A stretch of DNA of 40,452 bases from IMG/VR virus record IMGVR_UViG_3300020152_000015, positions 1 through 40,452 of that record. The stretch is one strand, 5' to 3'. Source of the stretch: a virus. Numbering within the stretch: the stretch's first letter is position 1; every line of letters begins with the position of its first letter. Both the position numbers and the translations under genes were made by a program. Positions 18,509 to 34,320 of this stretch are shown piece by piece. The notes beneath the pieces were generated by a model that made no database searches, had not been told where the DNA came from, and was given only the letters and a program-made list of their open reading frames with translations.

Positions 18509-18520
18509 GCGGTTAACCGC
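18509..18520. promoter_or_regulatory. Third GGTTAACC palindrome
   Basis: GCGGTTAACCGC, a perfect 12-bp palindrome overlapping the stop codon of the early gene. It belongs to the set at 18107-18136. Confidence 0.4.
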
Positions 18521-19428: not shown

Positions 19429-19430
19429 CT

Positions 19431-19502
19431 GGCGCCACGGCGCCACGACGCCACGGCGTCGGGACGCCACGCCACCACGGCGGCACGGCGCCATGGTGGC
19501 GC
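19431..19502. repeat. Octamer array B (candidate centromere), nine units
   Basis: The longest octamer array: GGCGCCAC twice, GACGCCAC, GGCGTCGG, GACGCCAC, GCCACCAC, GGCGGCAC, GGCGCCAT, GGTGGCGC, all in one 8-bp register. It abuts the GGTAACG array directly and is non-coding. Confidence 0.8.
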
Positions 19503-19652: not shown

Positions 19653-21335
19653 CTAGGTGACGGCATCGAGATCAACCTCCTGCTCGTCTGCGGCGCCCAC
19701 CCACTCCAAGCCGACGTAGACGGCGCGGGAGCGGGCGCCGGCGAAGTTGACCACCTTGTTCGGGATCTCCCGCCCCGGCACCCGCTCGAGGCTCTGGCGC
19801 CAGACCCCTTGCGCCCAGCGGGTGCCGGCGAAGATCTCGCGCAGGCTGTCGTGCTGGTTGGCGATGGCAAGGCGCGGCCGGTGGTCCGCCCCGGTCTGCA
19901 AGGCCAGCCCGTAGGCGCGCAGCGCCCGCGCCGCGTCGGCGTGCTCGCGCGCCTCGTTGATCAGCTCGCCGATCGTGCGCTTGCGCCCGGAGGACCACGC
20001 CTCGGCCGAGCGCGAGAACAGGTGCATGAGGCACTGCACGTGATCGGCGTCCTCGTCCCGATCGAGCACCTCGCCGGGCTTGAAGCCGCCGACGATCGAG
20101 GCCGCCTCGGCGGCGGTCGCCTTCTCATCGTTGAGCAGCACGTGGGCGCACGCCAACAGCACGCCGAGCTGATCGGCTTGGCGGGCGCCGTGGCCGAGGT
20201 CCTGCAACGCGCCGTCATAAACCACCAGCGCCTCTTGCAGCCGATCCCAGCCGCGCACCATCCGCGCCCGCATGCCGGCGCCGAGGGCGCCGCAGCGCTT
20301 GAGCCCCTCGCGCATCCGCGCCGCCGCGCCTTCGATCTTCTGCAACGGATCGAGGTTGAGCACGCAAATGCGGGTGAGGTCCTGCGGCAACAGCGGCACC
20401 GTAAGGATCGAGGAGAAGTAGAAGCAGGCGCGGATGTAGTAGCTTTGCGCCTTGCCGTCGGCCGAACCGCGCACCACCGCGCCCTGCCCGTCCGTCGAGC
20501 CCAGGCGCGCCAGCGCCACGACGTCGCGCGCGCGCCCCACGGTGCCGTCGCTGGACACCTCGATTTCGTCCAGCGCCACCGGGCGCGCGGCGCCGGCGAG
20601 CGCTTGGCGGATGCCGGCGGCGGAGGGGTCGGAGGCGCGGTAGACGGAGGAGCCGAGCAGCGCGTCCGAGAGCTGCTCGAGCGTCGTCTTGCCGGACCCG
20701 CGGTCGCCGGTGACCCAGATGTGCGGCCGCCAGCGCAGCGCCCCGACCACCATCGCGGCGCCGAGCCAGCCGAGGTACAGGCGGGGATCGGTCTCCGGCT
20801 TCCGCCAGTTCCACGTCTCGAGCAGCTCGAGGAGGTCGCGCACGTCGTCCTGCGCCGCCGGCTTGCGCGCCGGGCGCGGCTCGGGCACCGAGGCGGGGTA
20901 GATGTGGTTGCCGATCCGACACCCGGCGTCGAGCCACGCGCCGTCCGGCAAGCGGATCTGATCGCCGCAATGGAGCAACAGGCGCCCGTCGTCGTCGCGC
21001 CACGCGCCGGGGCCGCGGAGCTGGCGGTCGGGGTCGAAGAAGCCGGAGCGGGTGGAGGCGCGCATGAGCCACGCCGCCGCGTCCTGCTGTTTAAACCCGA
21101 CAACCTCGCCTTCCTTGTCGAAGCGCGGGAAGGTCTTGCGCAACCACTCCATGTCGCCATCGAACAGCGACAACAGCCCCGTGTTGGCGTGCTCGCGGTG
21201 GTTGAGGCGCGCCAGCGCGCCGCCGGGCGAGAGGTAATAATACGTCTTGCTGCCGTCGCCGGCGGCGTAGCCGAGGCTGCGCACCGGACAGTTCTCGTCC
21301 GGCGCCCGGTCCACCGCGTCGCGGATCGTCTCCAC
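19653..21335 (-). CDS. Phage replicative helicase / P-loop ATPase
   Basis: A 560-residue ATPase. Walker A GDRGSGKTT is at residues ~210-218 and a Walker B-like PVALDEIE at ~255. The N-terminal ~180 residues contain a Trp/Gly-rich region (GFFDPDRQLRGPGAW) of the type seen in phage helicase-primases. A sensor-like segment follows (SYYIRACFYFSSILTVPLLPQDLTRICVLNLDP). It probably unwinds DNA as a hexamer in lytic replication together with the adjacent primase. The start is GTG 21335 after GGGAGGG, coupled to the primase stop. SF3- or P4 alpha-like is my best guess; the exact family cannot be settled by eye. Confidence 0.85.
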   Translation of the reverse strand: METIRDAVDRAPDENCPVRSLGYAAGDGSKTYYYLSPGGALARLNHREHANTGLLSLFDGDMEWLRKTFPRFDKEGEVVGFKQQDAAAWLMRASTRSGFFDPDRQLRGPGAWRDDDGRLLLHCGDQIRLPDGAWLDAGCRIGNHIYPASVPEPRPARKPAAQDDVRDLLELLETWNWRKPETDPRLYLGWLGAAMVVGALRWRPHIWVTGDRGSGKTTLEQLSDALLGSSVYRASDPSAAGIRQALAGAARPVALDEIEVSSDGTVGRARDVVALARLGSTDGQGAVVRGSADGKAQSYYIRACFYFSSILTVPLLPQDLTRICVLNLDPLQKIEGAAARMREGLKRCGALGAGMRARMVRGWDRLQEALVVYDGALQDLGHGARQADQLGVLLACAHVLLNDEKATAAEAASIVGGFKPGEVLDRDEDADHVQCLMHLFSRSAEAWSSGRKRTIGELINEAREHADAARALRAYGLALQTGADHRPRLAIANQHDSLREIFAGTRWAQGVWRQSLERVPGREIPNKVVNFAGARSRAVYVGLEWVGAADEQEVDLDAVT

Positions 21336-22756: not shown

Positions 22757-22773
22757 GTTTCGGCAGTCGAAAC
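22757..22773. promoter_or_regulatory. Operator, GTTTCG-N5-CGAAAC family
   Basis: GTTTCG-GCAGT-CGAAAC, perfect 6-bp arms. It stands between the leftward early genes and the cro-like gene, where a repressor would block early transcription in the lysogen. Confidence 0.75.
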
Positions 22774-22791: not shown

Positions 22792-23028
22792 ATGACCGAT
22801 CCCCTTGCGGAGCGGATTGCGCTCCTGCGCGCCCAGGCGGCGTTGAGCCCGTCGCAGGCGCCGGGCATCCTCGCCTTGGCCGATCGCCTCGAGGAGGCGG
22901 GGCGGCTGGCGGGCGCCCCGCGTCACGCCGCCGCCCCCGCCATGGCGCCCGCCGGGCGCGGGCGGTCGAAGAAATCCTCCGGGCTCAGATCGACACGCTC
23001 GGCCGCCGCCAGATCGAGCAGCGGTTGA
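22792..23028 (+). CDS. Possible small protein antisense to the cro-like 3' end
   Basis: A 78-residue frame whose first ~42 residues (DPLAERIALLRAQAALSPSQ...) look like an amphipathic helical protein. The remainder is Arg/Ser-rich and lies antisense to the cro-like gene, so only the first part is convincing. The ribosome site is weak. It may be a short gene, or chance. Confidence 0.3.
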   Translation: MTDPLAERIALLRAQAALSPSQAPGILALADRLEEAGRLAGAPRHAAAPAMAPAGRGRSKKSSGLRSTRSAAARSSSG

Positions 23029-23189
23029 TGGTACTCGACCGGGATCAGCCCGCCCGTTCCGCCCCGCGCCATCGGGTAATCCCACTTGTAGACCGTGGCC
23101 GGCGCCAGCCCGAGCAGGCGGGCGAGGCGGCGCGCGCCGCCGAACTTTTCGATGATCCGCTTCGCCTGTCCGCTCACGCCCGTCACCAC
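22923..23189 (-). CDS. Cro/YdaS-like transcriptional regulator
   Basis: An 88-residue helix-turn-helix protein: GQAKRIIEKFGGARRLARLLGLAPATVYKWDYPMARGG is the Cro-type pattern (helix, turn, recognition helix with Tyr-Lys-Trp), followed by IPVEYHQPLLDLAAAERVDLSPEDFF, the usual ending of this family. The start is GTG 23189 (or 23177). It is divergent from the cI-like gene across a shared operator region and is expected to compete with the repressor to set lysis or lysogeny. Confidence 0.83.
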   Translation of the reverse strand: MVTGVSGQAKRIIEKFGGARRLARLLGLAPATVYKWDYPMARGGTGGLIPVEYHQPLLDLAAAERVDLSPEDFFDRPRPAGAMAGAAA

Positions 23190-23264: not shown

Positions 23265-23281
23265 GTTTCGGAATTCGGCAT
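23265..23281. promoter_or_regulatory. Degenerate operator, GTTTCG family
   Basis: GTTTCG-GAATT-CGGCAT: a perfect left arm and a weak right arm, 43 bp from the stronger site and 24 bp before the cI-like start. It could be the weaker autoregulatory site. Confidence 0.45.
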
Positions 23282-23304: not shown

Positions 23305-23973
23305 ATGCGACAGACAACCATGCACTGCGCCGCCCAGCCGGGGAGCCTCGCCCTCGTGCCACCACCCGTTGATAAAAAATGGTTTCAACAGCGTTTACGC
23401 GAGATGCGGCGCTCACAGGCGGAGCTTGCCCGCTTTATGGGTGTGCCGCCGGCCGCGGTGAGCCTGATATTTGCGGGGCGCCGGACGGTGCGCGCGCAAG
23501 AGGCGAGCGACATGGCGCGCTTCTTGTCCGTGCCCGTCAACGAAGTGTTAAAACGCCTCGGCACTACCATAGCCATATCCCCAAACGCCGTGCGGGTTGC
23601 CGGCATTCTCAAGGATCGGGACGTGGTAGCATCAATATCCGACGCGACAACCGACCCGGACACCCTCGCGATCATTGCCCCGCCGGGGCTGATGGACGCG
23701 GAATGCATCATCGTCGAGGCGAGCGACGCCGCGCCGCGGTTCTTTCCGGGCGATCAGATATTTTTCTACCGCCACGATGACGGCGACCCGGCCGAGCTGA
23801 TCGGCAAGACGGTTGTCGGCGCCACCGCCGACGGCCGTCTGTTCGTCAAACGACTCGCCCCAGGATCGCGCCCCGGCCACTACACGTTGCTCAGCTTCAA
23901 CCCGCTGGTCATGCCGGAACTCGACGTCCGGGTGAGCTGGGCGGCGCAGATCGCGTGGGTGCGGCCGGTCTGA
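23305..23973 (+). CDS. CI-like phage repressor (HTH plus S24-like domain)
   Basis: A 222-residue repressor starting at ATG 23305 behind GAGG. The DNA-binding helix-turn-helix is at ~38-60 (QAELARFMGVPPAAVSLIFAG). The C-terminal part has the LexA/CI-like pattern: a degenerate Ser region (EASDAAPRFFPGDQIFFY), then DGRLFVKRLAPGS with the Lys position, and LLSFNPL. Whether self-cleavage is retained is unclear because the usual Ser-Met-Pro triplet is altered. It should keep the lysogen silent by binding the nearby GTTTCG-N5-CGAAAC operators. Confidence 0.87.
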   Translation: MRQTTMHCAAQPGSLALVPPPVDKKWFQQRLREMRRSQAELARFMGVPPAAVSLIFAGRRTVRAQEASDMARFLSVPVNEVLKRLGTTIAISPNAVRVAGILKDRDVVASISDATTDPDTLAIIAPPGLMDAECIIVEASDAAPRFFPGDQIFFYRHDDGDPAELIGKTVVGATADGRLFVKRLAPGSRPGHYTLLSFNPLVMPELDVRVSWAAQIAWVRPV

Positions 23974-24040: not shown

Positions 24041-24055
24041 TATGCGAAACGCATA
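24041..24055. promoter_or_regulatory. Operator, TATGCG-N3-CGCATA family
   Basis: TATGCG-AAA-CGCATA, a perfect match, 35 bp upstream of a second copy and just before a TTGACG -35 box. Confidence 0.8.
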
Positions 24056-24064
24056 AATGAGCGC

Positions 24065-24092
24065 TTGACGCGGATTATGCGATCCGCATAGC
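24065..24092 (+). promoter_or_regulatory. Promoter with internal TATGCG operator
   Basis: TTGACG (24065-24070), 16-bp spacer and CATAGC. The operator TATGCG-ATC-CGCATA (24076-24090) covers the spacer and -10. It should drive the gene at 24126. Confidence 0.65.
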
Positions 24093-24125
24093 CTTCGGCC
24101 GTTCACCCCGCGCCGGAGGCCACCC

Positions 24126-24293
24126 ATGGACCGCACCCCACCCCTTGAACTCGTCTGGATCGTCGCCCCGAACGGGCTCCCCGCGCTCGGCGTGCGCGCC
24201 CGCCGGCCGGCGCCGCCGCCGCCGCGCCGCGCCCGCCTGCTCAACCTCGCGCTGGCGCTGGTGGTCGCGATCGCCCAGGCGGCCGAGCGCTGA
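24126..24293 (+). CDS. Small membrane-like accessory protein
   Basis: A 55-residue product with ATG 24126 behind GGAGG. The C-terminal half (RARLLNLALALVVAIAQAAER) is a single hydrophobic helix preceded by basic Pro/Arg residues, so a short membrane anchor is likely. It is the first gene under the double TATGCG operator. Function unknown. Confidence 0.6.
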   Translation: MDRTPPLELVWIVAPNGLPALGVRARRPAPPPPRRARLLNLALALVVAIAQAAER

Positions 24294-24378
24294 CGCGGCC
24301 GCCGTCTCAGGGGAGTGGAAGAGGGGCGGCCCGGTGAAAGGCGCCCCTCTTCTTTCGTTGCGGATCACAGGAAACCGC

Positions 24379-24407
24379 TTGCCCTCCTCGTATGCGGATC
24401 GCATAAA
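24379..24407 (+). promoter_or_regulatory. Promoter with TATGCG operator
   Basis: TTGCCC (24379-24384), 17-bp spacer, CATAAA (24402-24407). The operator TATGCG-GAT-CGCATA is at 24391-24405. The layout is the same as at 24065 and 29649. Confidence 0.65.
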
Positions 24408-24440
24408 GTGACGCAGACCAGCAACCGCGCGGAGCCGCCC

Positions 24441-24680
24441 ATGCCCAGCCCCCACGGAGAGCGGAGCGCCGCCGCACCGGCCGGCGGCGCCAAGAAGCAG
24501 ACCGCCCGCATGATCAAGTGCACATGCGCGACGTGCGGCTATGTGGCCCGCACGTCGCGCATGTGGATCGTGGAGGTTGGGGCGCCGCACTGCCCGCGGC
24601 ACGGCGCCATGACCACGGACGGCCGGGAGCGCGACGAGCGCCAGACCGACCTCGAGGACTTCGTGCGCCGCGGCGCCTAG
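24441..24680 (+). CDS. Zinc-ribbon protein (SprT C-terminal type)
   Basis: ATG 24441 behind GGAG; 79 residues. The centre reads KCTCATCGYVARTSRMWIVE followed by HCPRHGAM, a Cys4/Cys-His ribbon of the kind at the C-terminus of SprT-like proteins (CxxCGY...RTTRKW...G.P.CPCH). No protease domain is attached, so it is a stand-alone ribbon. It may bind nucleic acid or act as an adaptor; function unknown. Confidence 0.78.
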   Translation: MPSPHGERSAAAPAGGAKKQTARMIKCTCATCGYVARTSRMWIVEVGAPHCPRHGAMTTDGRERDERQTDLEDFVRRGA

Positions 24681-24690
24681 CCCACCCCGA

Positions 24691-24707
24691 CTTTCGTTTG
24701 CCGAAAC
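24691..24707. promoter_or_regulatory. Operator, GTTTCG-N5-CGAAAC family
   Basis: CTTTCG-TTTGC-CGAAAC, one mismatch. It lies upstream of the -35 of the promoter at 24717 and 52 bp from the second site. Confidence 0.7.
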
Positions 24708-24716
24708 ATTGCCCCG

Positions 24717-24745
24717 TTGCGCGTGGCGCGGCGGGGCGTTATGTT
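24717..24745 (+). promoter_or_regulatory. Promoter of the 24780 regulator gene
   Basis: TTGCGC (24717-24722), 17-bp spacer, TATGTT (24740-24745). A perfect GTTTCG operator begins in the -10. Confidence 0.7.
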
Positions 24746-24759
24746 TCGCAAATCGAAAC
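24743..24759. promoter_or_regulatory. Operator, GTTTCG-N5-CGAAAC family
   Basis: GTTTCG-CAAAT-CGAAAC, perfect, over the -10 and start site of the promoter at 24717. Confidence 0.8.
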
Positions 24760-24779
24760 ACACGGGAGGAGCGCCACCC

Positions 24780-25286
24780 ATGAGGGTCTTCCGCGCCGGC
24801 AACATCAAACCCCGGACCACGCGCCCCATTCTGCTCCGCCTCGCCACCGAAATGCGCCGCCAGCGCTGCCCGGCCCTCGAGCTGTCCGACCGCCACGGCG
24901 CGCTGTCGAACGGCGCCATCAGCCGGTGGCTGTGCGATCGCACCTCGCCGCCGCTCGCCGATCTGGCCGACGTCTTCTCGATCCTCGGGCTCCGCCTCGA
25001 TCTGGTGCGCCGCGCCCCGCCGGCGATCCCGCCGAGCCCGCGCTTTACCCCCCACGCCATCCCACCGCACGCGCACCCGCTCGTGCGGCGCTTCTACGCG
25101 GAACTCAACCGCACGGGCATCGCCGCGGCCGACGTCGCGGACGCGGCCGGGCTGAGCCGGCAAACCCTCGTCACGTGGAAGATCAGCCGCGCGCCGCTGC
25201 TCGTCACCTTCGAGCGGGCGCTCACCCCGCTCGGCCTCGCGATCGTCGCGTTCGCCCAGGCGGAAAGCCGGAGGGCCGCGGCATGA
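24780..25286 (+). CDS. Double helix-turn-helix regulator
   Basis: ATG 24780 behind GGGAGGAG; 168 residues. Two XRE-like helix-turn-helix units are visible: ~30-70 (ELSDRHGALSNGAISRWLCDRTSPPLADLADVFSILG) and ~105-145 (IAAADVADAAGLSRQTLVTWKISRAPLLVTFERAL). It overlaps the next gene as ATGA and is controlled by two GTTTCG operators. Probably a DNA-binding regulator of accessory or lytic genes; the target is unknown, and the TATGCG or GTTTCG sites are candidates. Confidence 0.8.
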   Translation: MRVFRAGNIKPRTTRPILLRLATEMRRQRCPALELSDRHGALSNGAISRWLCDRTSPPLADLADVFSILGLRLDLVRRAPPAIPPSPRFTPHAIPPHAHPLVRRFYAELNRTGIAAADVADAAGLSRQTLVTWKISRAPLLVTFERALTPLGLAIVAFAQAESRRAAA

Positions 25287-25486
25287 GCGAGCCCCGCCGC
25301 GTCTCCCTCAAGGACCTGTCGGAGCTGCTCGACGTCACCGGCGGCTCCGTCGCCCGCTACGTCACCCGCGCGCCGGACGGTGCCCCCGAGCACGCGCTCA
25401 TCATGGTCCGCGGGGAGCGGATGATCCGCCGGGTGATCGCCCTCATGGACGAGGCCGAGGACGTTCTCCGCACCAAGGATCTGTGA
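25283..25486 (+). CDS. Small DNA-binding-like protein
   Basis: ATG 25283 overlaps the previous stop (ATGA); 67 residues. VSLKDLSELLDVTGGSVARYVTRA resembles a short helix-turn-helix, followed by an acidic tail. Coupled to the double-HTH regulator, it may be a co-regulator or anti-repressor. No family assigned. Confidence 0.65.
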   Translation: MSEPRRVSLKDLSELLDVTGGSVARYVTRAPDGAPEHALIMVRGERMIRRVIALMDEAEDVLRTKDL

Positions 25487-25488
25487 TC

Positions 25489-25740
25489 ATGGCCGTCACG
25501 ACCCCAACCTACCCGCTCGAGGCGCTGCGCACGCGGCTGCGCGTGGACGCCATTCTCGGCGCCGCCCAGGTGGACCCCGGCAACCGTTCCGCCGCCACCG
25601 TCCTCGCCGAGGCGGCGCTGCAAACCGCGGGCGGGCTCCCGTGCCGCATGCGCGTGGAGTTCCTCGAATGGCTCACGGCGGCGGTCGCCGGCGAACTGGA
25701 GGACGCGCACCGGGTCATGCGGGAGCGCGACGAGCCATGA
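25489..25740 (+). CDS. Small protein of unknown function
   Basis: ATG 25489 is preceded by AAGGA; an alternative GTG 25483 would overlap the previous stop. It has 83 residues, mostly helical (YPLEALRTRLRVDAILGAAQ, FLEWLTAAVAGELEDAHRVM), with a central Cys. It is part of the same coupled run as its neighbours. No domain recognised. Confidence 0.65.
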   Translation: MAVTTPTYPLEALRTRLRVDAILGAAQVDPGNRSAATVLAEAALQTAGGLPCRMRVEFLEWLTAAVAGELEDAHRVMRERDEP

Positions 25741-25964
25741 GCGCCACCGTCCTGCGCCTCACCCAATGGCGGCGACCGATCCTCGAGGTGTGCACCCGCT
25801 GCTGGCGGGAGCCGAGCCTGGGCGCCGCGCTGCTCGGACGGTGCAACGGCTGCGGCTACCGCGCCCCTCCCGAGTTGGTCGACGCGCACGCCGGCGAGAT
25901 CGCCGCCATGGTCGCGGCCTTCTCCAGCGGCGAGGACCCGCTCGCCTCGGACACGCTGTTCTGA
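25737..25964 (+). CDS. Small zinc-ribbon protein
   Basis: ATG 25737 overlaps the preceding stop (ATGA); 75 residues. CTRCWREPSL and GRCNGCGYRAPPE form a CxxC...CxxC ribbon at ~19-40, then an acidic C-terminus (SSGEDPLASDTLF). Likely a nucleic-acid or protein-binding accessory factor; function unknown. Confidence 0.7.
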   Translation: MSATVLRLTQWRRPILEVCTRCWREPSLGAALLGRCNGCGYRAPPELVDAHAGEIAAMVAAFSSGEDPLASDTLF

Positions 25965-26018
25965 GATCCGCGCCGCCGGCGCCCCATCCATCCGCCCCGC
26001 ACTCCGGAGGATCGCACC

Positions 26019-26228
26019 ATGCCCAAGCCGCCGCCCAGGTTCGCGCCCAATCCACCGCCCAGGATCGCCGGCCTCCGCCGCCCGCCGGGGTTCCTCACGC
26101 TGGCCGAGGCGGACGCGCCGCTCTACCGGCGCGGCGTGCGGGACGGGCGCCTTGAGGGCGCCGGCATGGCCTCGGCGCTGTGGATTGCGCTCGCCGCTGC
26201 GGTGGCGATCGGCCGCTGGTGGGTGTAG
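26019..26228 (+). CDS. Small protein with C-terminal membrane segment
   Basis: ATG 26019 behind GGAGG; 69 residues. The N-terminus is Pro/Arg-rich, the middle has FLTLAEADAPLYRRGVRDGR, and the end (MASALWIALAAAVAIGRWWV) is one hydrophobic helix, so a single-pass tail-anchored protein is likely. Role unknown; superinfection exclusion is one possibility. Confidence 0.62.
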   Translation: MPKPPPRFAPNPPPRIAGLRRPPGFLTLAEADAPLYRRGVRDGRLEGAGMASALWIALAAAVAIGRWWV

Positions 26229-26237
26229 GGGGCGATC

Positions 26238-26663
26238 ATGCCGCTCAAGGCGAAGCAGTACATCACGCAACAGGACGTCCGCCGGCGACGGGATTGCGTG
26301 TTTGTGTTCGGCGACAACGACACGCGCAAGGGGCGCGGCGGGCAGGCGCATGCGTGCCGGGGCGAGCCCAACACAATCGGCGTGCGGCTGCGGAAGCATG
26401 CCGGCGACCATCCGTCCGCGTGCTGGACGGATGAGGAGTTCGCCGAGAACCGCGCGAAGATCGATGAGGACGTGAGGGCGATCCGCGCCGCGCTCGAGGC
26501 AGGGAAAACGGTGGTGTTCCCCAAGGGAGGGCTGGGCTCGGGCTCCATCCCGATCGAGGAGGCCGCACCCAACACCGCGCGATACCTCCTCGAGCAGCTC
26601 GCCGCCCTCAAGGCGATCCCCGGCGCCGTCGCCCAGGCGCCGCGCGAGACCGAGCCCGTTTAA
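26238..26663 (+). CDS. DUF7831-like conserved phage protein
   Basis: A 141-residue protein starting MPLKAKQYITQQDVRR. The motif FVFGDNDTRKGRGGQAHACR followed by GEPNTIGV (residues ~22-48) and the later FPKGGLGSGSIPIEEAAP mark a widespread phage and bacterial family listed, as I remember, as DUF7831, with Gly-rich loops like those of macro-type nucleotide-binding folds. Activity is not known to me. The stop codon TAA lies in a GTTTAAAC palindrome. Confidence 0.8.
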   Translation: MPLKAKQYITQQDVRRRRDCVFVFGDNDTRKGRGGQAHACRGEPNTIGVRLRKHAGDHPSACWTDEEFAENRAKIDEDVRAIRAALEAGKTVVFPKGGLGSGSIPIEEAAPNTARYLLEQLAALKAIPGAVAQAPRETEPV

Positions 26664-26669
26664 ACGGGC
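26650..26669. terminator. 20-bp perfect palindrome between convergent genes
   Basis: GAGCCC-GTTTAAAC-GGGCTC, overlapping the stop of the rightward gene and lying before the end of the leftward gene at 26686. It could form a bidirectional terminator hairpin, though without a U-run, and it carries one of eight GTTTAAAC sites. Confidence 0.5.
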
Positions 26670-26685
26670 TCAGCCACCCCTTCCG

Positions 26686-27018
26686 CTATGATGCGGGGAG
26701 ATGCGCGGCGAGCAGCGCCCACGCCGCCCGCTGCACCTCGTTCAGCGCCTTCTCATCGCCAGCGGCGGCGCGCGCCACGGCGCTGCTGAACAGCTCGCGC
26801 ATGTCGGAGCCAGTGGAAAAAAAGCAGGCGGCCGCCCCGTTGAACTCGGGGCCGGTGACCTCGGGCGCAACCGAGACACGGACCTCGTTCGCGGCGCGCC
26901 GTCCGCGATCGAACGCAAAGAGGATCGCGCGGACGGCGACCTCGAGCGGAACAGAGGCGCCGGGCTCCCGGCCGCCGGCGGTGTCGTGCAACAGGTCAAG
27001 CGCTTCATCGCGTGTCAT
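26686..27018 (-). CDS. Accessory protein of unknown function
   Basis: ATG 27018 behind AGGGAG; 110 residues beginning MTRDEALDLLHDTAGGREPG. It has charged helices and a Phe-rich middle (FNGAAACFFSTGSDMRELFSSAVARAA). Last gene of the leftward accessory operon; a repeated leader with hairpin lies 16-56 bases upstream. No family recognised. Confidence 0.7.
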   Translation of the reverse strand: MTRDEALDLLHDTAGGREPGASVPLEVAVRAILFAFDRGRRAANEVRVSVAPEVTGPEFNGAAACFFSTGSDMRELFSSAVARAAAGDEKALNEVQRAAWALLAAHLPAS

Positions 27019-27033
27019 GGTCTCCCTGTTGTG

Positions 27034-27074
27034 GCGCCGGGGAGTGTGATCCTCCCCGGCGCGTGGCGGAAGGG
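27034..27074 (-). promoter_or_regulatory. Leader hairpin plus conserved 19-mer (copy 1)
   Basis: An 11-bp stem (27034-27044 with 27052-27062) follows a 19-nt block, 27056-27074, that is identical to 27625-27643. It lies just ahead of the ribosome site of the gene at 27018. Stem sequence differs between the copies while pairing is kept, which suggests a conserved RNA structure. Confidence 0.6.
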
Positions 27075-27079
27075 CTCGG

Positions 27080-27583
27080 TTAGCGCACGTAGCCGCAGAA
27101 GCCCCGGCGTTCCGCTGGCGTCTTGTCGCGCACCCAAAGGGCGGAGAAGGACGCTGAGGGAGGGTCCTCGTCCCAGCATCGGCAGGACGTGGAGCGAAGC
27201 CGCCAGCCGTCGCCGGGCGGCGGAGAGGGCTCCCAGGAGCGGAGCGCCAGCTCGATCTCCTCGCGCGCCGCGACCACCTTCTCCTGGGCGGCGTCGTAAA
27301 CCTCATTCGTGGCGTTGTGAGGGAGATCGTCACGCGCCGTCACCGCGGCGACGAAAGCGGCGTCATCCGGCCGAAAGCTGGTGGTGATCTGCTCGAGCGG
27401 ATCAGCGTCCGCGTCGTTCGTCCACTGCCACGCCATGCACGTGGCGCCGATGCACAAGCGGCCGACGGCGTTGATGTAGGTGAGCGGGCCGTTCACGAGC
27501 GCGGAGCCGGTGGCGACGCCGCAACCCTCCGGGCCGCAGCACCGGAGGGTGAGGGCGGTTGCTAGGGTGTGGGTGGTGGGCAT
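27080..27583 (-). CDS. Cys-rich accessory protein, unknown function
   Basis: ATG 27583 behind GAGGAG; 167 residues. The first half has LRCCGPEGCGVATGSALVNG and GRLCIGATCMAWQW, a CIGxxCMAW pattern I recall from other small phage proteins that probably bind a metal. Later come acidic helices and a C-terminal CRCWDEDPPS. Coupled to the surrounding operon; function unknown. Confidence 0.75.
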   Translation of the reverse strand: MPTTHTLATALTLRCCGPEGCGVATGSALVNGPLTYINAVGRLCIGATCMAWQWTNDADADPLEQITTSFRPDDAAFVAAVTARDDLPHNATNEVYDAAQEKVVAAREEIELALRSWEPSPPPGDGWRLRSTSCRCWDEDPPSASFSALWVRDKTPAERRGFCGYVR

Positions 27584-27605
27584 GGGGCGAGGCTCCTCGG
27601 GCTGG

Positions 27606-27643
27606 GCCGGCGCCTGGGGCGGCGCCGGCGCGTGGCGGAAGGG
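27606..27643 (-). promoter_or_regulatory. Leader hairpin plus conserved 19-mer (copy 2)
   Basis: A 9-bp stem (27606-27614 with 27621-27629) next to the same 19-mer (27625-27643), upstream of the gene at 27583. Second copy of the element at 27034. Confidence 0.6.
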
Positions 27644-27667
27644 TTCGATAGCTCCGCGTTTAAACGT

Positions 27668-27707
27668 GGCGCCATGACGCCATGGTGTCACGGCGTCATG
27701 GCGCCGT
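27668..27707. repeat. Octamer array C (candidate centromere), five units
   Basis: GGCGCCAT, GACGCCAT, GGTGTCAC, GGCGTCAT, GGCGCCGT in register. It overlaps the last codons of the gene ending at 27688 and a possible promoter for 27583 (TTGACG-N17-CACCAT on the minus strand). Confidence 0.78.
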
Positions 27708-28101
27708 CAAACGGATTTATGCGATACGCATAGTTACGCGGGGCCGCCCGCTCATCCCGCCGCGCCAGGACCATGAGCCGGCTCAATACGCTGTGGTGCC
27801 GGCGGCCCATCGCCCGGCCGATCGCCGCATAGGTCATGCCCGATCGCGCCAGCCGGAGGAGACGCTCGTCCTCCTCCGGCGTGAAGCGCCGCACCGGACG
27901 GCCGTTGCGCTCGACCACCATCGGCCCGACCGGCGACGCCTTGACCGGCTCCGGCGGCTCGGCTCCGAGCTTGAGGCACTGCCATTCCACCGCGCCGCGC
28001 GAGCACCCGACGATCGCGGCGATCTTCGGATAGGAGAGCCCCTCCTCGCGGAGTTCGCAGATCCGGTCAATCTGCTCCTGGGTGAGGCGGGCGTACCTCA
28101 T
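27688..28101 (-). CDS. GcrA-like / double HTH regulator
   Basis: ATG 28101 overlaps the PP-loop gene stop (ATGA); 137 residues. The N-terminal unit TQEQIDRICELREEGLSYPKIAAIVGCSRGAVEWQCLKLG and the C-terminal RRFTPEEDERLLRLARSGMTYAAIGRAMGRRHHSVLSRLM are two helix-turn-helix domains of the Myb/SANT and GcrA kind. Probably a transcription regulator. Its 3' end also contains a TATGCG operator (27718-27732, coding NYAYRIN) and octamer array C. Confidence 0.82.
   Translation of the reverse strand: MRYARLTQEQIDRICELREEGLSYPKIAAIVGCSRGAVEWQCLKLGAEPPEPVKASPVGPMVVERNGRPVRRFTPEEDERLLRLARSGMTYAAIGRAMGRRHHSVLSRLMVLARRDERAAPRNYAYRINPFDGAMTP
27718..27732. promoter_or_regulatory. Operator, TATGCG-N3-CGCATA family, inside a coding sequence
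   Basis: TATGCG-ATA-CGCATA, perfect, within the last codons of the GcrA-like gene and 20 bp from octamer array C. It may control the gene at 27583. Confidence 0.7.
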
Positions 28102-29027
28102 GGCTCCGCCTCCTCCACCGCGAAGCACCCGCAGCCGCCGATATCGTGCCTATCGACCTGGGCGCCGGCCTCGATCCGCTCGCGCAGTTCCCGCAACGTC
28201 ATCGGCCGGCGCTTCCCGCCACCGCGGCGGTCCACCAGCATGGCGATATCAGTTCGGCCCAGGTATTCGCGGATCTCCTGCTCTCGACGCTCATGGTAGG
28301 CGTAGCGCGCCGGCATGGTGCGCAACAGGTTCGCGAAATGTCCGTGTCCAGCCTTGATACAGAAGCCCCCGCAATTGTTGTGAGAGAACCCCAGAGCGTA
28401 GAGGCGCGCCGAAGCGATCCCCTCCGCTTCGAGCGCCCGGCGAATGTCGTCTTTCAAGACGTAAGGGGCGCCACACAACGGGGCCTCGTAGCGCCAGCCG
28501 ACAGCGGCTCGGCGATCACGAAGCTCCGTGTATCGGTGCTCCTCGGTCCAGTCGATCCCGACATAAACGACCGTTTGAGCCGGATCGCAATTCTCCCGAA
28601 GCCACCGATCGGCCAACTGCCGCTTGAGGATCTTTGAGCACGGATCGTGCCGCGAGTTGCCAAGGAACCGCTCATCAAAGAATACTTGCCACGGAGTTCG
28701 CCCCTCGGCGACCCACACAAGACGAGGCAGGACCTCCGCGGCCGCCGCCGCGAGATCCTGCAAGAACCGGCCGCGCGCGGCCTCGTCTTCCATTGGCGGA
28801 ATGCCGGCCAACCGATCAAGGAGCCGCTGCGGCGCCGGCACTCCAAAGACGTTCGCCGCCCCCTCGATCAGGAAGCGATAGAGGTCCTCATCCTCCACAA
28901 GGGTGTCGCTGAAATAGAGGTACAGACGATCCACGCCATGCGCACCCACAACGCGCTTGGCAGAGCCCCACGAGCCCTCACCGCCGGAAAACATCTGCAC
29001 GTGCACCGGTCCGCTGTCGGTAAGCAT
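28098..29027 (-). CDS. PP-loop ATPase, PAPS reductase-like family
   Basis: ATG 29027; 309 residues. FSGGEGSWGSAKRVV near residue ~13 is the PP-loop with the usual Asp replaced by Gly (SGGxGS), followed by YLYFSDTLVEDEDLYRFL, then TPWQVFFDERFLGNSRHDPC, CSKILKRQLADRWL, YVGIDWTEEHRYTE, and SHNNCGGFCIKAGHGHFANLL. This matches phage relatives of PAPS reductases; from memory the Gly variant is common there. The Cys set could hold a metal or cluster. Chemistry unknown; adenylation and sulfur or base modification of tRNA or DNA are options. Confidence 0.85.
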   Translation of the reverse strand: MLTDSGPVHVQMFSGGEGSWGSAKRVVGAHGVDRLYLYFSDTLVEDEDLYRFLIEGAANVFGVPAPQRLLDRLAGIPPMEDEAARGRFLQDLAAAAAEVLPRLVWVAEGRTPWQVFFDERFLGNSRHDPCSKILKRQLADRWLRENCDPAQTVVYVGIDWTEEHRYTELRDRRAAVGWRYEAPLCGAPYVLKDDIRRALEAEGIASARLYALGFSHNNCGGFCIKAGHGHFANLLRTMPARYAYHERREQEIREYLGRTDIAMLVDRRGGGKRRPMTLRELRERIEAGAQVDRHDIGGCGCFAVEEAEP

Positions 29028-29035
29028 GGGGCGCC

Positions 29036-29269
29036 TCAGATCTCGGCGCGATGCGCGCGGTATGTGCCCTCCACCTCGCGGCGATAGAGGTCGTACCACG
29101 TTTCCCCGTCCGGCAAGACAACGGCCCGCGCGAGGCGGGCAACCGAATGGTACAGGTCAATAATCGCGTCGGCTCCGGCCAGACCGGGCGACGTCTTGTA
29201 GTACTCCGCACACCGCTCGGCGTCGCCCGCGACGGCCGCCAGTTCGCGCACCACTCCATTTCTCGACAT
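29036..29269 (-). CDS. Small protein of unknown function
   Basis: ATG 29269 behind GAGGG; 77 residues. Starts MSRNGVVRELAAVAGDAERC and continues as helical segments (AIIDLYHSVARLARAVVL, TWYDLYRREVEGTYRAHR). It sits between the RMF-like and PP-loop genes. No family recognised. Confidence 0.7.
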   Translation of the reverse strand: MSRNGVVRELAAVAGDAERCAEYYKTSPGLAGADAIIDLYHSVARLARAVVLPDGETWYDLYRREVEGTYRAHRAEI

Positions 29270-29338
29270 ACAGGCGCCCTCTTTTTGAATGTTTAAACAT
29301 CCGGCAACCGGCCGGCGCGGTGCCACAACCTCACCCTT

Positions 29339-29527
29339 TCACCGCGACCGCCACCGGGCGAGGCCGATCGCGGCCTCCGCGCTCCAGCACCAGCCGGTGA
29401 ACCACGCCTCAGCGGCAGCGCTGCCCGACGGGTACGGGTTGACGTTGAAGTCGCGCCCCTCACGCTGGGCCTGGGCACCCTGGGCGCGCCAACGCACGAC
29501 AAGATCCACCACCTTCGCACCCACCAT
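29339..29527 (-). CDS. RMF/CrpP-like small protein
   Basis: ATG 29527 behind GAGG; 62 residues. RWRAQGAQAQREGRDFNVNPY followed by AEAWFTGWCWSAEAA matches the ribosome modulation factor pattern (A..G..A...G....NPY......W..GW), also seen in CrpP-like proteins on mobile elements. RMF dimerises ribosomes; CrpP has been linked to fluoroquinolone tolerance. Which role, if any, applies here is unknown. It is the first gene of the leftward accessory operon. Confidence 0.78.
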   Translation of the reverse strand: MVGAKVVDLVVRWRAQGAQAQREGRDFNVNPYPSGSAAAEAWFTGWCWSAEAAIGLARWRSR

Positions 29528-29551
29528 GAGACACCTCACCTTGCGCGTGAT

Positions 29552-29568
29552 GTTTCGATTTCCGAAAC
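29552..29568. promoter_or_regulatory. Operator, GTTTCG-N5-CGAAAC family
   Basis: GTTTCG-ATTTC-CGAAAC, perfect, over the -10 region of the leftward accessory promoter. Confidence 0.8.
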
Positions 29569-29595
29569 ATGCCACGCCCAGGCGCCGGCGATCAA
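29566..29595 (-). promoter_or_regulatory. Promoter of the leftward accessory operon
   Basis: Minus strand TTGATC (29590-29595), 18-bp spacer, CATGTT (29566-29571), with the operator starting in the -10 as it does at 24740. It should drive 29527 to 26686. Confidence 0.65.
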
Positions 29596-29648
29596 GCGGG
29601 CTTTCATGCCAAAATCGAAACGAACCGCCACCGCCCACGGCGCCGCGC

Positions 29649-29677
29649 TTGCGCCGGGCTTATGCGCGCCGCATACT
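29649..29677 (+). promoter_or_regulatory. Promoter with TATGCG operator
   Basis: TTGCGC (29649-29654), 17-bp spacer, CATACT (29672-29677); operator TATGCG-CGC-CGCATA at 29661-29675. It drives the regulator at 29702, divergent from the leftward accessory operon. Confidence 0.72.
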
Positions 29678-29701
29678 CCGCCCTCAGCGGAAGAGGATCG
29701 G

Positions 29702-29980
29702 ATGGACAAAGACGGATACGCCGCCGCCGTGGATGAGCTGGGCATCACCGACGCCGAGGTTGCGCGGCGGCTCTCGATCGCCGGCGGCTACACGGTGCAG
29801 CAAACCACGCTGTGGCGCATCCGCATCGGCGAGACCCGCCGCGTGCCGCCCGCCCTCGCCGCGTACCTGTATCTGCTCCTCGCCATCAAGCGCGCCGGCG
29901 TGGACGCGACGCCCTTCCTCGAGCGCGCCGCCAGCCTGCCCGCCGGCGCCGGAGCCCGCCGCCCGCATGAGGACGGATAG
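29702..29980 (+). CDS. Small HTH regulator
   Basis: ATG 29702 behind AGAGGA; 92 residues. LGITDAEVARRLSIAGGYTVQQTTLWRIRIGETRRVPPALAAYL is a Cro/XRE-type helix-turn-helix with the recognition helix ending LWRI. Its own promoter carries a TATGCG operator, so it is a candidate autoregulator and a candidate reader of the TATGCG family. Confidence 0.78.
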   Translation: MDKDGYAAAVDELGITDAEVARRLSIAGGYTVQQTTLWRIRIGETRRVPPALAAYLYLLLAIKRAGVDATPFLERAASLPAGAGARRPHEDG

Positions 29981-30500
29981 ACCCCTGATCGCCCCGCCCC
30001 GGCTCGTCCGCGCCGCGCTGGCGGGGGCGGTGGCCGAGCTGCGCCTCCCCGCCGGCCATCCGCTCACCGAGGCGATCCCCGGCGATCGGCTCTATCTGCG
30101 CGAGGAGGTCCACCTCGAGGGCCGCGCCGGCGAGCCCCCGACCGGCGCCGTCTACGCGATCGACGGCGCGCCGGTGGACCTCGGGCGCTTTCCCGCCGGC
30201 AAGGTGCTGCCCCCGGCCTTCCAGCCGGTGCGCTACCCCGGCGCCTGGGCCGCGCGGCTGTGGTTCCGCATCGTGCGCAAGCACTATCACCCGCTCGCCC
30301 AGATCTCCGAGGCCGAGGCGATCGCCGAGGGCATCCCGCCGGCGCCGGCGCGGCCGCGCGGCATGCCGGCGTGGGTGGCGCACCCCACCGCACGGGGCGA
30401 TCGCCTCCGCTTCTGGGATGCCGAGCACCCCGACCACCCGGCGGCGGGCAACCCGACCGCGCTCGCGCTCACGCTGGCGCCGATAGACCGCCCGTCCTGA
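29967..30500 (+). CDS. ASCH-domain protein
   Basis: ATG 29967 (overlapping the previous gene by 14 nt); 177 residues. IPGDRLYLREEVHLEG, the GAWAARLWFRIVRKHYHPL strand region and QISEAEAIAEGIPP near residue ~115 are the ASCH features common in phages (LWVREtw... and LqdIseedaiaEG). ASCH folds resemble PUA domains and bind RNA. Its role here is not known. Confidence 0.82.
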   Translation: MRTDRPLIAPPRLVRAALAGAVAELRLPAGHPLTEAIPGDRLYLREEVHLEGRAGEPPTGAVYAIDGAPVDLGRFPAGKVLPPAFQPVRYPGAWAARLWFRIVRKHYHPLAQISEAEAIAEGIPPAPARPRGMPAWVAHPTARGDRLRFWDAEHPDHPAAGNPTALALTLAPIDRPS

Positions 30501-30549
30501 TCGAGGACGCGCCGCCCATCCGCCGGGCGCCTGGTTGGGCGTTCCGTCT

Positions 30550-30564
30550 TATGCGAGCCGCATA
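30550..30564. promoter_or_regulatory. Operator, TATGCG-N3-CGCATA family, ahead of parA
   Basis: TATGCG-AGC-CGCATA, perfect. It lies 69 bp before the parA start and next to octamer array D, so partition genes may be under the same regulator. Confidence 0.75.
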
Positions 30565-30578
30565 AATTCCCGCTTTAC

Positions 30579-30642
30579 GACGCCGTGGCGCCATGGCATC
30601 GTGACGCCACAGCGCCACGAAGGAATGACGCCATGCCACCAA
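30579..30642. repeat. Octamer array D over the parA promoter and ribosome site
   Basis: GACGCCGT, GGCGCCAT, GGCATCGT, GACGCCAC, AGCGCCAC, then the Shine-Dalgarno unit GAAGGAAT, then GACGCCAT and GCCACCAA, all in one 8-bp register. A weak promoter (TTTACG 30574, CATCGT 30597) lies under it. It fits an operator and centromere for ParB autoregulation. Confidence 0.8.
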
Positions 30643-31313
30643 GACGAAAACCCACGCCGCTGCGCGCGGTCGCCGTGATGATGCAGAAGGGCGGGGCCGG
30701 CAAAACCACGCTTGCCGTGCACCTCGCCGTTGCCGCCGGCGCCGCCGGCGAGCGCGCCGTGCTGATCGACGCCGATCACCCGCAAGCCTCCGCCTCGGTG
30801 TGGGGCGAGCTGCGACAAGACAGCGAGCCGCCGGTGATCACCGTTGAACCGATCAACGTCGCCGCGGTGCTCGCGGCGGCGCGCGAGGACGGCCGCACGC
30901 TGGCGATCATCGACACCAGCCCACACGCCACGCCGTCGGCCGCCGAGGCGGCGAACGCCGCCGATTTCATCCTGATCCCCTGCCAACCGAGCCTGTTCGA
31001 TCTGGCGGCGGCCGAGCGCTCGGCGGCGATCGCCAAGGCCGCCCAGGCGAAGGCGGCCGGCGCCGGCCGGCGCGTCGGCGCCGCCTTCGTGCTCAACGGC
31101 GTGCCGGCGCGCGAGGATGATCCGGAGGTGATCGACGCGCGCGCCGCCCTCGAGGCGATCCTCCCGGTGGCGCCCATGGCGATCGGCCGGCGCAAGCCGT
31201 TCGTCCGCGCCGTGGCGCACGGTGAAGCGGTCACCGAGTTTCAGCGCCGCGGCAAGGCCGCCGGCGAAATCTCCGCCCTGCTCACCTGGATCAAAGGAGC
31301 CCTCGAGCGATGA
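30633..31313 (+). CDS. parA: ParA partition ATPase
   Basis: ATG 30633 behind GAAGGA; 226 residues. The deviant Walker A QKGGAGKTTLAVH (KGGxGKTT, residues ~19-26) and LIDADHPQASASVWG are diagnostic of type Ib ParA; Walker B IIDTSPH follows at ~90, then DFILIPCQPSLFDL. It uses ATP to place plasmid copies on the nucleoid. It lacks an N-terminal DNA-binding extension, as is usual when a small ribbon-helix-helix ParB regulates the operon. Coupled to the next gene (ATGA). Confidence 0.93.
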   Translation: MPPRRKPTPLRAVAVMMQKGGAGKTTLAVHLAVAAGAAGERAVLIDADHPQASASVWGELRQDSEPPVITVEPINVAAVLAAAREDGRTLAIIDTSPHATPSAAEAANAADFILIPCQPSLFDLAAAERSAAIAKAAQAKAAGAGRRVGAAFVLNGVPAREDDPEVIDARAALEAILPVAPMAIGRRKPFVRAVAHGEAVTEFQRRGKAAGEISALLTWIKGALER

Positions 31314-31588
31314 GCGACAAGAGCGCAAAGAAGACCTCCTCCGGCCTCGCCGCGTGGCAGAACCGCCGCCCGGCCGCCGGCGCGGACCCGGCGCCCCCGC
31401 CCGCCGCCCCGGCCGGCGACGAACGGCTGGTGCCGGTGACGATCCGCTTCACCGAGGAGCAGCACCGCCGCGTGGCCGAGCTGGCGCGCGCCACGCCCGG
31501 CAAGCGCAAGCGCACCGCCAGCGTGCAGGAACTCGTGATCGAGGGGCTGTCGCGGCTGTTCGCCGAACGCGGCCTCCCGCCGCTGTGA
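31310..31588 (+). CDS. Ribbon-helix-helix ParB-like centromere-binding protein
   Basis: ATG 31310 overlaps the parA stop; 92 residues. The N-terminal ~45 residues are disordered (Pro/Ala, Lys/Ser), typical of the arm that stimulates ParA. Residues ~45-85 (LVPVTIRFTEEQHRRVAELARA, TASVQELVIEGLSRLF) form a strand followed by two helices, the ribbon-helix-helix fold of omega and ParG-type proteins. These bind short tandem repeats as dimers and repress the par operon. The phased octamer arrays are the likely binding sites. Confidence 0.85.
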   Translation: MSDKSAKKTSSGLAAWQNRRPAAGADPAPPPAAPAGDERLVPVTIRFTEEQHRRVAELARATPGKRKRTASVQELVIEGLSRLFAERGLPPL

Positions 31589-31593
31589 GGCAT

Positions 31594-31625
31594 GGCGCCA
31601 CGGCGTCACGGCGCCGTGGCGTCTT
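31594..31625. repeat. Octamer array E (candidate centromere), between parB-like and rep genes
   Basis: GGCGCCAC, GGCGTCAC, GGCGCCGT, GGCGTCTT in register, covering the convergent ends of the partition and rep genes. Confidence 0.78.
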
Positions 31626-32433
31626 CCTTGGCGCCGGTGATCCGCGCCTTGCGGCCGGCGCTGTGGCGGCGAAGCTCCTGAAAGGCTTCCTTCAACTCAT
31701 CCGGCGTCTTGCGCGCCCAGGCGAGCGTGATCGCCTCCACAGCCCGCCCCTTCTTCACCGGCTCGATCGACACCCAATAATCGCCGAGCGCATTGACCTC
31801 GGCCACCGCGGGCTTGAGCGCCCAGGCGTTGAGGTTGCGGAACCCCTCGAGCTTGCCCGGCTCGACGCCGAGGTATGAACGGATCTCGTCCAGAGTAAAG
31901 GTCTGCGCAGACTGATAGATCATGTTGCCGCGCTTCTGCACCATCTCGTACAGCGCGAGCGCATACTTGCTCGACAGGTGCAACATGATGTCCCGCCGCA
32001 GTCGCCCGAAGGTCTCACTGTTGACGATCACCACGCGCATTTCTTCCGAGAAACGGTAGCGGAACATCCCGTCCGGAACGACGTCCTCATAGTTCGGGGC
32101 CAGGAGCTGCACGCGCAAGGTCTGCTCAATGTCCTTGCCCCTGCGCTCGTCCCGACGCTTGATGCGCACGCGCAGGATTGCCGACATGAGGCGCTCAATG
32201 CTGTCGCCCAGGCGGTCATTGCTCTCGTGCGAGCCGCGCAGGTCAGCCTTTGGAATGACGTGCTGCACCGGCTCGCCGATCCGGTCCCAAGCGTGCGCAA
32301 TGAGCAGGTTCCAGATCTTGCGGTCCTGCAACGTGAGCGGCGTCATTTCCACCACGTCGATCAGCTCGCCCGGCTTGATGATCGTATCGTGCGAAGGGCG
32401 CGCCTGGATGGTCTTGTAAGGCTCTGGCGTCAT
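31606..32433 (-). CDS. Plasmid replication initiator, Rep_3 family
   Basis: The start ATG 32433 is chosen because the likely -10 covers ATG 32466. 275 residues (MTPEPYKTIQARPSHDTI...). The pattern is the two-winged-helix initiator: KPGELIDVVEMTPLTLQDRKIWNLLIAHAW, RYRFSEEMRVVIVNSETFGR, SSKYALALYEMVQKRGN, FTLDEIRSYLGVEPGKLEGF and ITLAWARKTPDE. Such proteins bind iterons to open the origin and repress their own gene. It is expected to replicate the circular prophage. Array E overlaps its last codons. Confidence 0.9.
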   Translation of the reverse strand: MTPEPYKTIQARPSHDTIIKPGELIDVVEMTPLTLQDRKIWNLLIAHAWDRIGEPVQHVIPKADLRGSHESNDRLGDSIERLMSAILRVRIKRRDERRGKDIEQTLRVQLLAPNYEDVVPDGMFRYRFSEEMRVVIVNSETFGRLRRDIMLHLSSKYALALYEMVQKRGNMIYQSAQTFTLDEIRSYLGVEPGKLEGFRNLNAWALKPAVAEVNALGDYWVSIEPVKKGRAVEAITLAWARKTPDELKEAFQELRRHSAGRKARITGAKEDATAP

Positions 32434-32520: not shown

Positions 32521-32776
32521 CGGTTAGGTTTGGGGCGGCGCAGCGAGGCGGACAAAGCGCAGCCACCCGCCCAAAACCTAACCGATGGGCCAGCCGCAAC
32601 CGGTGCCACGCCTGGGCCCGGTTGCCACCCGCCCAAAACCTAACCGTTCGCCGGGGGCCTGTGGACAACCGGGCCGCGGCCCGCACAACACCCCGCCCAA
32701 TCCCTAACCGTAGCCATCCCAAAACCTAACCGTTCGCCGCCCAATCCCTAACCCGACTCCGCCCAATCCCTAACCG
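32521..32776. other. Plasmid origin: Rep iterons
   Basis: A 17-bp iteron of the type CGCCCAAAACCTAACCG or CGCCCAATCCCTAACCG occurs at 32568, 32630, 32694, 32716, 32738 and 32760, with a reversed copy at 32521-32538. The last four are exactly 22 bp apart, two helical turns. Together with DnaA boxes and an AT-rich stretch this is a typical Rep_3 iteron origin. The iteron core matches the arms of the rep operator. Confidence 0.88.
32660..32668 (-). promoter_or_regulatory. DnaA box
   Basis: TGTGGACAA on the plus strand, that is TTGTCCACA, one base from TTATCCACA, among the iterons. Confidence 0.65.
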
Positions 32777-32780
32777 ATCG

Positions 32781-33789: not shown

Positions 33790-33829
33790 GGTTGCACGGT
33801 TGCGTGGCGCCACGGCGCCACGGCGTCAG
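33790..33829. repeat. Octamer array F (candidate centromere)
   Basis: Two degenerate units (GGTTGCAC, GGTTGCGT) then GGCGCCAC, GGCGCCAC, GGCGTCAG in register, overlapping the last codon of the endolysin gene. Confidence 0.7.
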
Positions 33830-34320
33830 GCGAAGCCGCAGCCAGCCGCCGCGTACTTCTCCACGAAACCGGCGGGCGTGCCCTTGCCGGCCTCGGTGTT
33901 GTAGTGCCGCTTCCAGTAGCGGCCGTACCCTTCGAGGTCGCCGGCGGCGGGCAGCGGCTCGGCGACGCGCCGGTAGTGCAGCCGGCACAGGGCGGCGGCG
34001 TAAGCGAGGTTGGTCACGAGCTGCTCGACGGGGCGCGGCCACGTCGCGAGCAGCGCCTCCACCTGGGCGCGCAGCTCCGGCCGATAAGCGATCATGTTGC
34101 GCCACAGGTCATCGTGCGTCGCCTCCTCCATCTGCCACAGCCCGTAGGCCGGGCCGAGGCGGTCATCCGCGCCCGAGGTGACCTGATCGAGCAGGCGCAA
34201 GCCGGTTTCGGCGGCCGCGGTGCCAAGCACGAGGTCCTCGGCGGCGGCGCTCCACAGATCGAGGCGGACGAGGACCGGGCGGATCACGAACAGACGGAGG
34301 TGTCGGGGACTGAGGCTCAT
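33826..34320 (-). CDS. Lysozyme-like endolysin candidate
   Basis: ATG 34320 overlaps the holin stop (ATGA); 164 residues. LVLGTAAAETGLRLLDQ, the Pro-Ala-Tyr-Gly-Leu-Trp-Gln-Met-Glu segment (PAYGLWQMEEATHDDLWRNM), LVTNLAYAAALCRLHYRRV and GRYWKRHYNTEAGKGT match a common phage family with a lysozyme/transglycosylase-like pattern (Glu in AAETG, Gln-Met-Glu motif). It probably cuts peptidoglycan for host lysis. Muralytic activity has not been shown; a structural transglycosylase role is possible. Confidence 0.75.
   Translation of the reverse strand: MSLSPRHLRLFVIRPVLVRLDLWSAAAEDLVLGTAAAETGLRLLDQVTSGADDRLGPAYGLWQMEEATHDDLWRNMIAYRPELRAQVEALLATWPRPVEQLVTNLAYAAALCRLHYRRVAEPLPAAGDLEGYGRYWKRHYNTEAGKGTPAGFVEKYAAAGCGFA

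Follow-up and report, generated by a model that had tools for sequence, protein, structure and literature searches.

The virus record IMGVR_UViG_3300020152_000015, analyzed here over its full 40,452 nucleotides (hereafter, the window), carries six perfect copies of the 15-bp palindrome TATGCG-N3-CGCATA that, judged from the sequence, are an operator set and not a product of chance. The combination of a λ-type terminase, a primase, and CI-like and Cro-like proteins with ParA, a ribbon-helix-helix (RHH)-like partner, and a Rep_3 initiator makes the window most likely a phage-plasmid, whose host is probably an alphaproteobacterium. All six palindromes fit putative σ70 promoters, in which they occupy two positions; from the sequence, we infer promoter activity, the identity of the protein that reads the sites, and the sign of regulation. 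We rate as about even the chance that this reader is a phage-plasmid-encoded, dimeric λ-repressor-like (XRE-type) regulator separate from CI and Cro, with the helix-turn-helix (HTH) protein encoded at 29702 as the first candidate.

Six palindromes in two promoter positions

The copies at 24041, 24076, 24391, 27718, 29661, and 30550 each match all 12 arm bases and lie within 6.5 kb (24.0 to 30.6 kb) of the 40.5-kb record, which confirms both the coordinates and the arms given in a preliminary description of this DNA. As that description held, the set is confined to the accessory and partition region, and no copy occurs in the late genes of the window. A scan of the window allowing one or two mismatches returned no copy beyond the six, neither symmetric one-base variants nor other spacer lengths were found there, and six of the seven TATGCG hexamers on the plus strand belong to the palindromes. 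In dinucleotide shuffles scored at up to two mismatches, the palindrome was matched 1.04 times on average, and six matches were never reached. The arms hold 24 bits of information, compared to 12.7 bits needed to locate six sites in 40 kb and ∼19 bits for a 4-Mb host, which suits an operator that would need to be discriminated from the host chromosome. What we find is a palindromic site repeated above chance and placed in putative promoters (assigned by consensus only), as in an operator regulon; this supports the regulon proposed earlier, in the form of candidate operators for accessory and partition genes. The six operators are listed below (octads are 8-bp CRTGRCGY repeats):

24041..24055, + strand: operator, upstream class; ends 9 nt before the -35 TTGACG (24065-24070) of the 24126 promoter
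24076..24090, + strand: operator, spacer class; TTGACG-16-CATAGC, start of gene 24126 35 nt downstream
24391..24405, + strand: operator, spacer class; TTGCCC-17-CATAAA, ATG 24441 35 nt downstream
27718..27732, - strand: operator, upstream class; 7 nt before TTGACG, then an octad array, then gene 27583-27080
29661..29675, + strand: operator, spacer class; TTGCGC-17-CATACT, start of HTH gene 29702 26 nt downstream
30550..30564, + strand: operator, upstream class; 9 nt before TTTACG, then an octad array, then parA ATG 30633

At 24076, 24391, and 29661, the palindrome fills the spacer between the -35 and -10 boxes, its right arm providing the CATA of the -10, and the site stands 26 to 35 nt from an ATG that bears a Shine-Dalgarno sequence. 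This shared geometry had been recognized previously and was confirmed for all three sites; a TTG at 16 to 17 nt in at least three of six sites has a chance probability of ∼3e-4, both strands counted. A second geometry, missed by the preliminary description, is common to the other three sites (24041 and 30550 on the plus strand and 27718 on the minus strand), where the palindrome ends 7 to 9 nt before a -35 box that reads TTGACG, TTTACG, and TTGACG, respectively. The corresponding chance probability is ∼5e-7, for a hexamer class that was chosen after the sites were seen. When aligned, these three sites share the extended module CGCATAAAT-N2..5-CGYTTKACG, and the modules at 27718 and 30550 both run on into octad arrays ahead of the gene start. 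Although site 27718 falls within the 3' end of a GcrA-like open reading frame, its best reading is on the minus strand, where gene 27080-27583 begins 135 bp farther on. Taken together, the six sites would be elements of the putative promoters of genes 24126, 24441 (with its reading frame listed from 24408), 27583 (minus strand), 29702, and parA, which gives the following genes as predicted targets:

24126..24293, + strand: 55-aa target protein; no family match
24441..24680, + strand: small Cys-rich target protein, phrog_6361; the reading frame can also open at 24408
27080..27583, - strand: 167-aa target protein; no family match
29702..29980, + strand: HTH protein of 92 aa, leading candidate for the reader and presumably autoregulated; searches gave neither a family nor a homologue
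29967..30500, + strand: phrog_874-like protein of 177 aa; probably follows 29702 as second gene in one operon
30633..31313, + strand: ParA ATPase, target operon; phrog_164, 2.8e-32
31310..31588, + strand: small RHH-like protein of the ParB type, encoded second in the par operon; weak RHH match, 0.0087

The promoter positions also bear on the idea that the palindromes act in RNA, as hairpins in 5' untranslated regions. In aquatic phages (G825, G827, G828, and G005), GTTATGCGNNNCGCATAAC or a close form does precede many Shine-Dalgarno sequences, often after a stop codon. In the window, however, three sites lie upstream of -35 boxes and, provided that these promoters are genuine, would not be part of the transcript, the spacer sites overlap the -10, and the arms never vary, so that no compensatory changes back a stem. 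We regard a function in RNA as most improbable.

The same palindrome beside S24 repressors

Among 397 genomes of Rhodobacteraceae, the family in which the closest Rep relatives occur, the 15-mer is present in 40 scattered copies (∼0.1 per genome), with at most two in a genome and never two on one contig, and it is therefore no regulon of that family. Binding by a host regulator alone, the outcome that the preliminary description had set against its proposal, is not favored by these counts in Rhodobacteraceae, a family that may not be that of the phage-plasmid's host. In IMG/VR, the pattern TTG-N9-TATGCG-N3-CGCATA is found in 55 stretches and TTATGCG-N3-CGCATAA in 78; the TTG geometry of the former set is there by construction, but adjacency to a repressor is not. 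Fourteen distinct S24 repressors with the helix [PQ]TYxxHENG[SN]R (referred to as HENGSR repressors; loci L206, L207, L215, L217, L220, L223, L224, L226, L227, L235, L236, L238, L249, and L279) have the site, with no or one mismatch, 84 to 96 nt upstream of their HTH codons, and no genuine HENGSR repressor occurs in 2.37 Mb of control loci. At L320, which was found without requiring the TTG, two operators flank a TTGACA in an arrangement much like that at 24041/24076, 24 bp apart compared to 35 in the window, i.e., about one helical turn closer. Small XRE/HTH genes also adjoin the 15-mer (the L211 group and L307). Because the site recurs beside both HENGSR S24 repressors and small XRE genes, sequence comparison indicates that TATGCG-N3-CGCATA is a recurrent XRE-type operator, and the HENG[SN]R repressors appear to form a predictable immunity specificity class. 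Among 24 HENG-like repressors from a class-level sample that was not selected for the motif, a near-perfect site is present only at L383 (helix PTYLAHENGSRG); those sampled with other helices have no site within two mismatches. The motif string was absent from the literature that we searched.

A paired-site scan also returned L005, whose overlapping motif runs within an open frame were judged irrelevant. In a set of aquatic phages (L322-L331 and L112, from G825, G826, G827, G828, G834, G835, and G005), many genes have TATGCGNNNCGCATAA(C/T) immediately ahead of their Shine-Dalgarno sequence, often directly behind the stop codon of the gene before; it may be a repeated intergenic hairpin or processing element. 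We considered these copies as sites of the same kind and rejected them as intergenic hairpins, a different thing.

The repressor loci raise the alternative that the window sites are bound in trans by a HENGSR-type S24 repressor encoded by the host or by a prophage in the same cell, so that the phage-plasmid's partition and accessory genes would follow the immunity state of another element. The arms, spacer length, and promoter position of the window sites match those of HENGSR operators, which likewise include a spacer-class site in a TTGACA promoter and, in several cases, a tandem pair (L320), and the window encodes no HENGSR protein of its own (no match to PTYxxHENGSR in its six frames). A cleavable repressor acting in trans would, moreover, give damage sensitivity to a phage-plasmid whose own CI-like repressor has lost the catalytic Ser: in the alignment, the catalytic GDSM position of its S24-like domain reads ASDA, this CI is probably not self-cleaving, and induction may be RecA-independent. 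On the other hand, the central triplet is YNR in 16 of 18 HENGSR sites and in 0 of 6 window sites (Fisher p=2e-4, or 1e-3 with near-duplicates collapsed), which argues for a reader other than a HENGSR protein; HENG-like repressors with a near-perfect site are uncommon (1/24), and the site is rare in Rhodobacteraceae genomes. HENGSR operators also serve an adjacent repressor/cro switch, whereas the window sites are spread over accessory and partition promoters, and here CI probably uses another operator. We therefore consider a reader in trans unlikely, and its extension, that a maintenance program placed under a HENGSR S24 operator senses another resident, repressed prophage, rather unlikely.

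The 29702 protein and other candidate readers

Within the window, 29702 is the sole XRE-like HTH gene with a TATGCG site in its own promoter. A single-sequence AlphaFold2 model of the protein (predicted local distance difference test score, 72.7) contains five helices, and its top fold matches in the PDB are mostly λ-repressor-like HTH proteins (HigA, controller proteins, and Aca10), all with E values above 0.2. The preliminary description had named three possible readers, and the 29702 protein emerges as the best of them on the spacer site in its promoter and its λ-repressor-like predicted fold. The double-HTH protein encoded at 24780 has TTTCG-N5-CGAAA (24692 and 24744), not TATGCG, in its promoter, and nothing ties the GcrA/Myb-like helices of the GcrA-like protein to the palindrome.

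Several points weigh against an XRE-type regulator of the phage-plasmid as the reader. The model of 29702 is moderate in confidence, and its fold matches are not significant. Relatives of the protein were not detected in IMG/VR, among phages, plasmids, and 385 genomes sampled from the window's class, or by phmmer against the PDB, so that its specificity has no comparative test. The strong association of the 15-mer with HENGSR repressors could mean a HENGSR-type reader in trans, the promoters at the sites are consensus matches only, and six identical copies without degenerate ones are unusual for an operator set.

If the 29702 protein is the reader, a dimer bound in the -35/-10 spacer (24076, 24391, and 29661) would keep RNA polymerase off the promoters of two small accessory genes and of its own gene. 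Bound 7 to 9 nt upstream of the -35 (24041, 27718, and 30550), the regulator would act from about position -51, where it would adjoin the spacer site of the 24126 promoter (from 24041) or the octad arrays, and hence a partition protein, at the parA and 27583 promoters; from this position, it could either activate or contribute to repression alongside the second bound protein. The outcome would be a small circuit that keeps partition and accessory genes low and coordinated in the plasmid state.

The immunity region of the window bears on whether CI could be the reader instead:

23305..23973, + strand: CI-like repressor, HTH_3 and S24-like domains; probable reader of the TTTCG-N5-CGAAA set
22923..23186, - strand: Cro/YdaS-like protein, divergent from CI

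A second palindrome, TTTCG-N5-CGAAA, is interleaved with the TATGCG set, being perfect at 22758 (22758..22772, + strand), 23223, 24692, 24744, and 29553 and degenerate at 23266 and 23999, with three copies extended to TGTTTCG-N5-CGAAACA. The 23223 copy lies inside a putative TTGACG-18-TATGGT promoter directed leftward, toward the Cro-like gene, and the degenerate 23266 copy likewise lies between the CI and Cro genes, a placement that makes this palindrome the presumed CI/Cro immunity operator. Both sets might nevertheless be read by the CI-like S24 repressor of the phage itself, or by Cro, with TATGCG as a second specificity, given that the CI gene is directly upstream of the 24041/24076 pair and that CI and the HENGSR repressors that use this operator have related C-terminal domains. 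CI is, however, an unlikely reader because the CI/Cro intergenic region carries TTTCG-type sites only; its recognition helix, VPPAAVSLIFAGRR, is unlike PTYxxHENGSR, and its closest relatives (L332-L334) have neither a TATGCG nor a TTTCG-N5-CGAAA site upstream. Reading of both sets by CI or Cro is, in our estimate, distinctly unlikely.

Octad arrays occur, apparently between genes, at 19432-19495, 27665-27708, 30576-30619, 31591-31622, and 33803-33830, three of them beside the elements discussed here:

27665..27708, + strand: octad array (CRTGRCGY), adjoining operator 27718
30576..30619, + strand: octad array, between operator 30550 and parA
31591..31622, + strand: octad array, between the RHH-like gene and rep

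The five arrays resemble a dispersed centromere of the kind that phage N15 has, to be used by the RHH-like partition protein, to which the octads plausibly belong. The same protein (31310), or the GcrA-like protein, might also read the palindromes: a palindrome stands in the parA promoter, octad arrays adjoin two of the sites in a conserved layout, and palindrome 27718 lies inside the GcrA-like reading frame. RHH centromere proteins usually bind short tandem repeats, however, which the octads supply, and four of the sites are without octads. We hold either protein as the reader to be very doubtful.

Genome context and related circuits

The window is 72% GC and has a 127-bp direct terminal repeat that is consistent with a complete circular or permuted genome. 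Its terminase is at best 42% identical to those of phage WO and Rhodobacter phages, and its terminase relatives show 41 to 46% identity. Single-sequence searches of IMG/VR found no relatives of 29702, ParA, or TerL, and the window DNA had no match among phages. No palindrome site is present in the terminase relatives or in 43 records screened over their full length, the Rep-bearing phage-plasmid L013 among them, nor is there one in 1.48 Mb of loci around Rep relatives, mostly Rhodobacterales plasmids. L013 (IMGVR_UViG_3300048861_000118), itself a tailed phage-plasmid, encodes ParA and a related Rep (43%) and lacks TATGCG sites. The Rep gene of the window is as follows:

31606..32433, - strand: Rep_3 initiator, 50-54% identical to Rhodobacterales plasmid RepB

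Beside it, the iterons CCCAAAACCTAACCG / CCCAATCCCTAACCG are repeated at 32575-32780, a likely plasmid origin. Many GGTAACG repeats in both orientations fill 19246-19430, between gene 18513-19196 and the primase/helicase-like gene 19653-21335, and may mark a lytic origin. In this GC-rich DNA, GTTTAAAC also occurs three times (about 26657, 27658, and 29290), one copy being within the 20-bp palindrome GAGCCCGTTTAAACGGGCTC between convergent genes.

In the phage-plasmid P1, the C1 immunity repressor acts at dispersed operators to control plasmid-state and accessory genes. The window likewise has dispersed identical sites, but P1 uses its immunity repressor, whereas in the window these sites and the presumed immunity operators are different sets. 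In its working, the nearest counterpart is the KorA circuit of the IncP plasmid RK2, where a 101-aa HTH dimer binds a short palindrome at seven operators that control plasmid genes and acts jointly with the partition protein KorB, a ParB-type protein (PMC4889941). Here, too, one operator stands at several maintenance promoters, at parA and at five other sites, in a likeness that extends to how the circuit would work only. The KorA consensus is 12 bp without a spacer and imperfect in four of seven sites (PMC4889941), whereas the window palindromes are all perfect with N3, and KorB is of the ParB type, whereas the partition partner in the window is RHH-like. A phmmer search of 29702 against the PDB returned no match, and its fold matches are to HTH proteins in general, none significant. 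In the Aca8-type regulons of archaeal viruses, a small HTH protein and one regulatory sequence govern many small accessory genes (PMC11065993). The window resembles Aca and anti-defense regulons in having one small HTH protein and the same sequence before small accessory genes, its own included (the 29702 promoter carries a site). It differs in that no anti-CRISPR gene was identified, that partition genes are included, and that the promoters are bacterial rather than archaeal; the small accessory targets received no functional assignment. We rejected KfrA as an analogue, since its binding sites are direct repeats and the strings that matched proved to be primers. By these analogies, we claim membership neither in the KorA family nor in the Aca regulons.

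On sequence grounds, the virus appears to be previously unseen, and its type of operator set would already be known from other phages and plasmids. For a phage-plasmid, the sites would define from sequence a second regulatory circuit, whose operators take two fixed positions and are linked to partition arrays. In addition, a specificity class of S24 prophage repressors is assigned the operator TATGCG-N3-CGCATA, so that DNA alone might suffice to predict prophage immunity groups.

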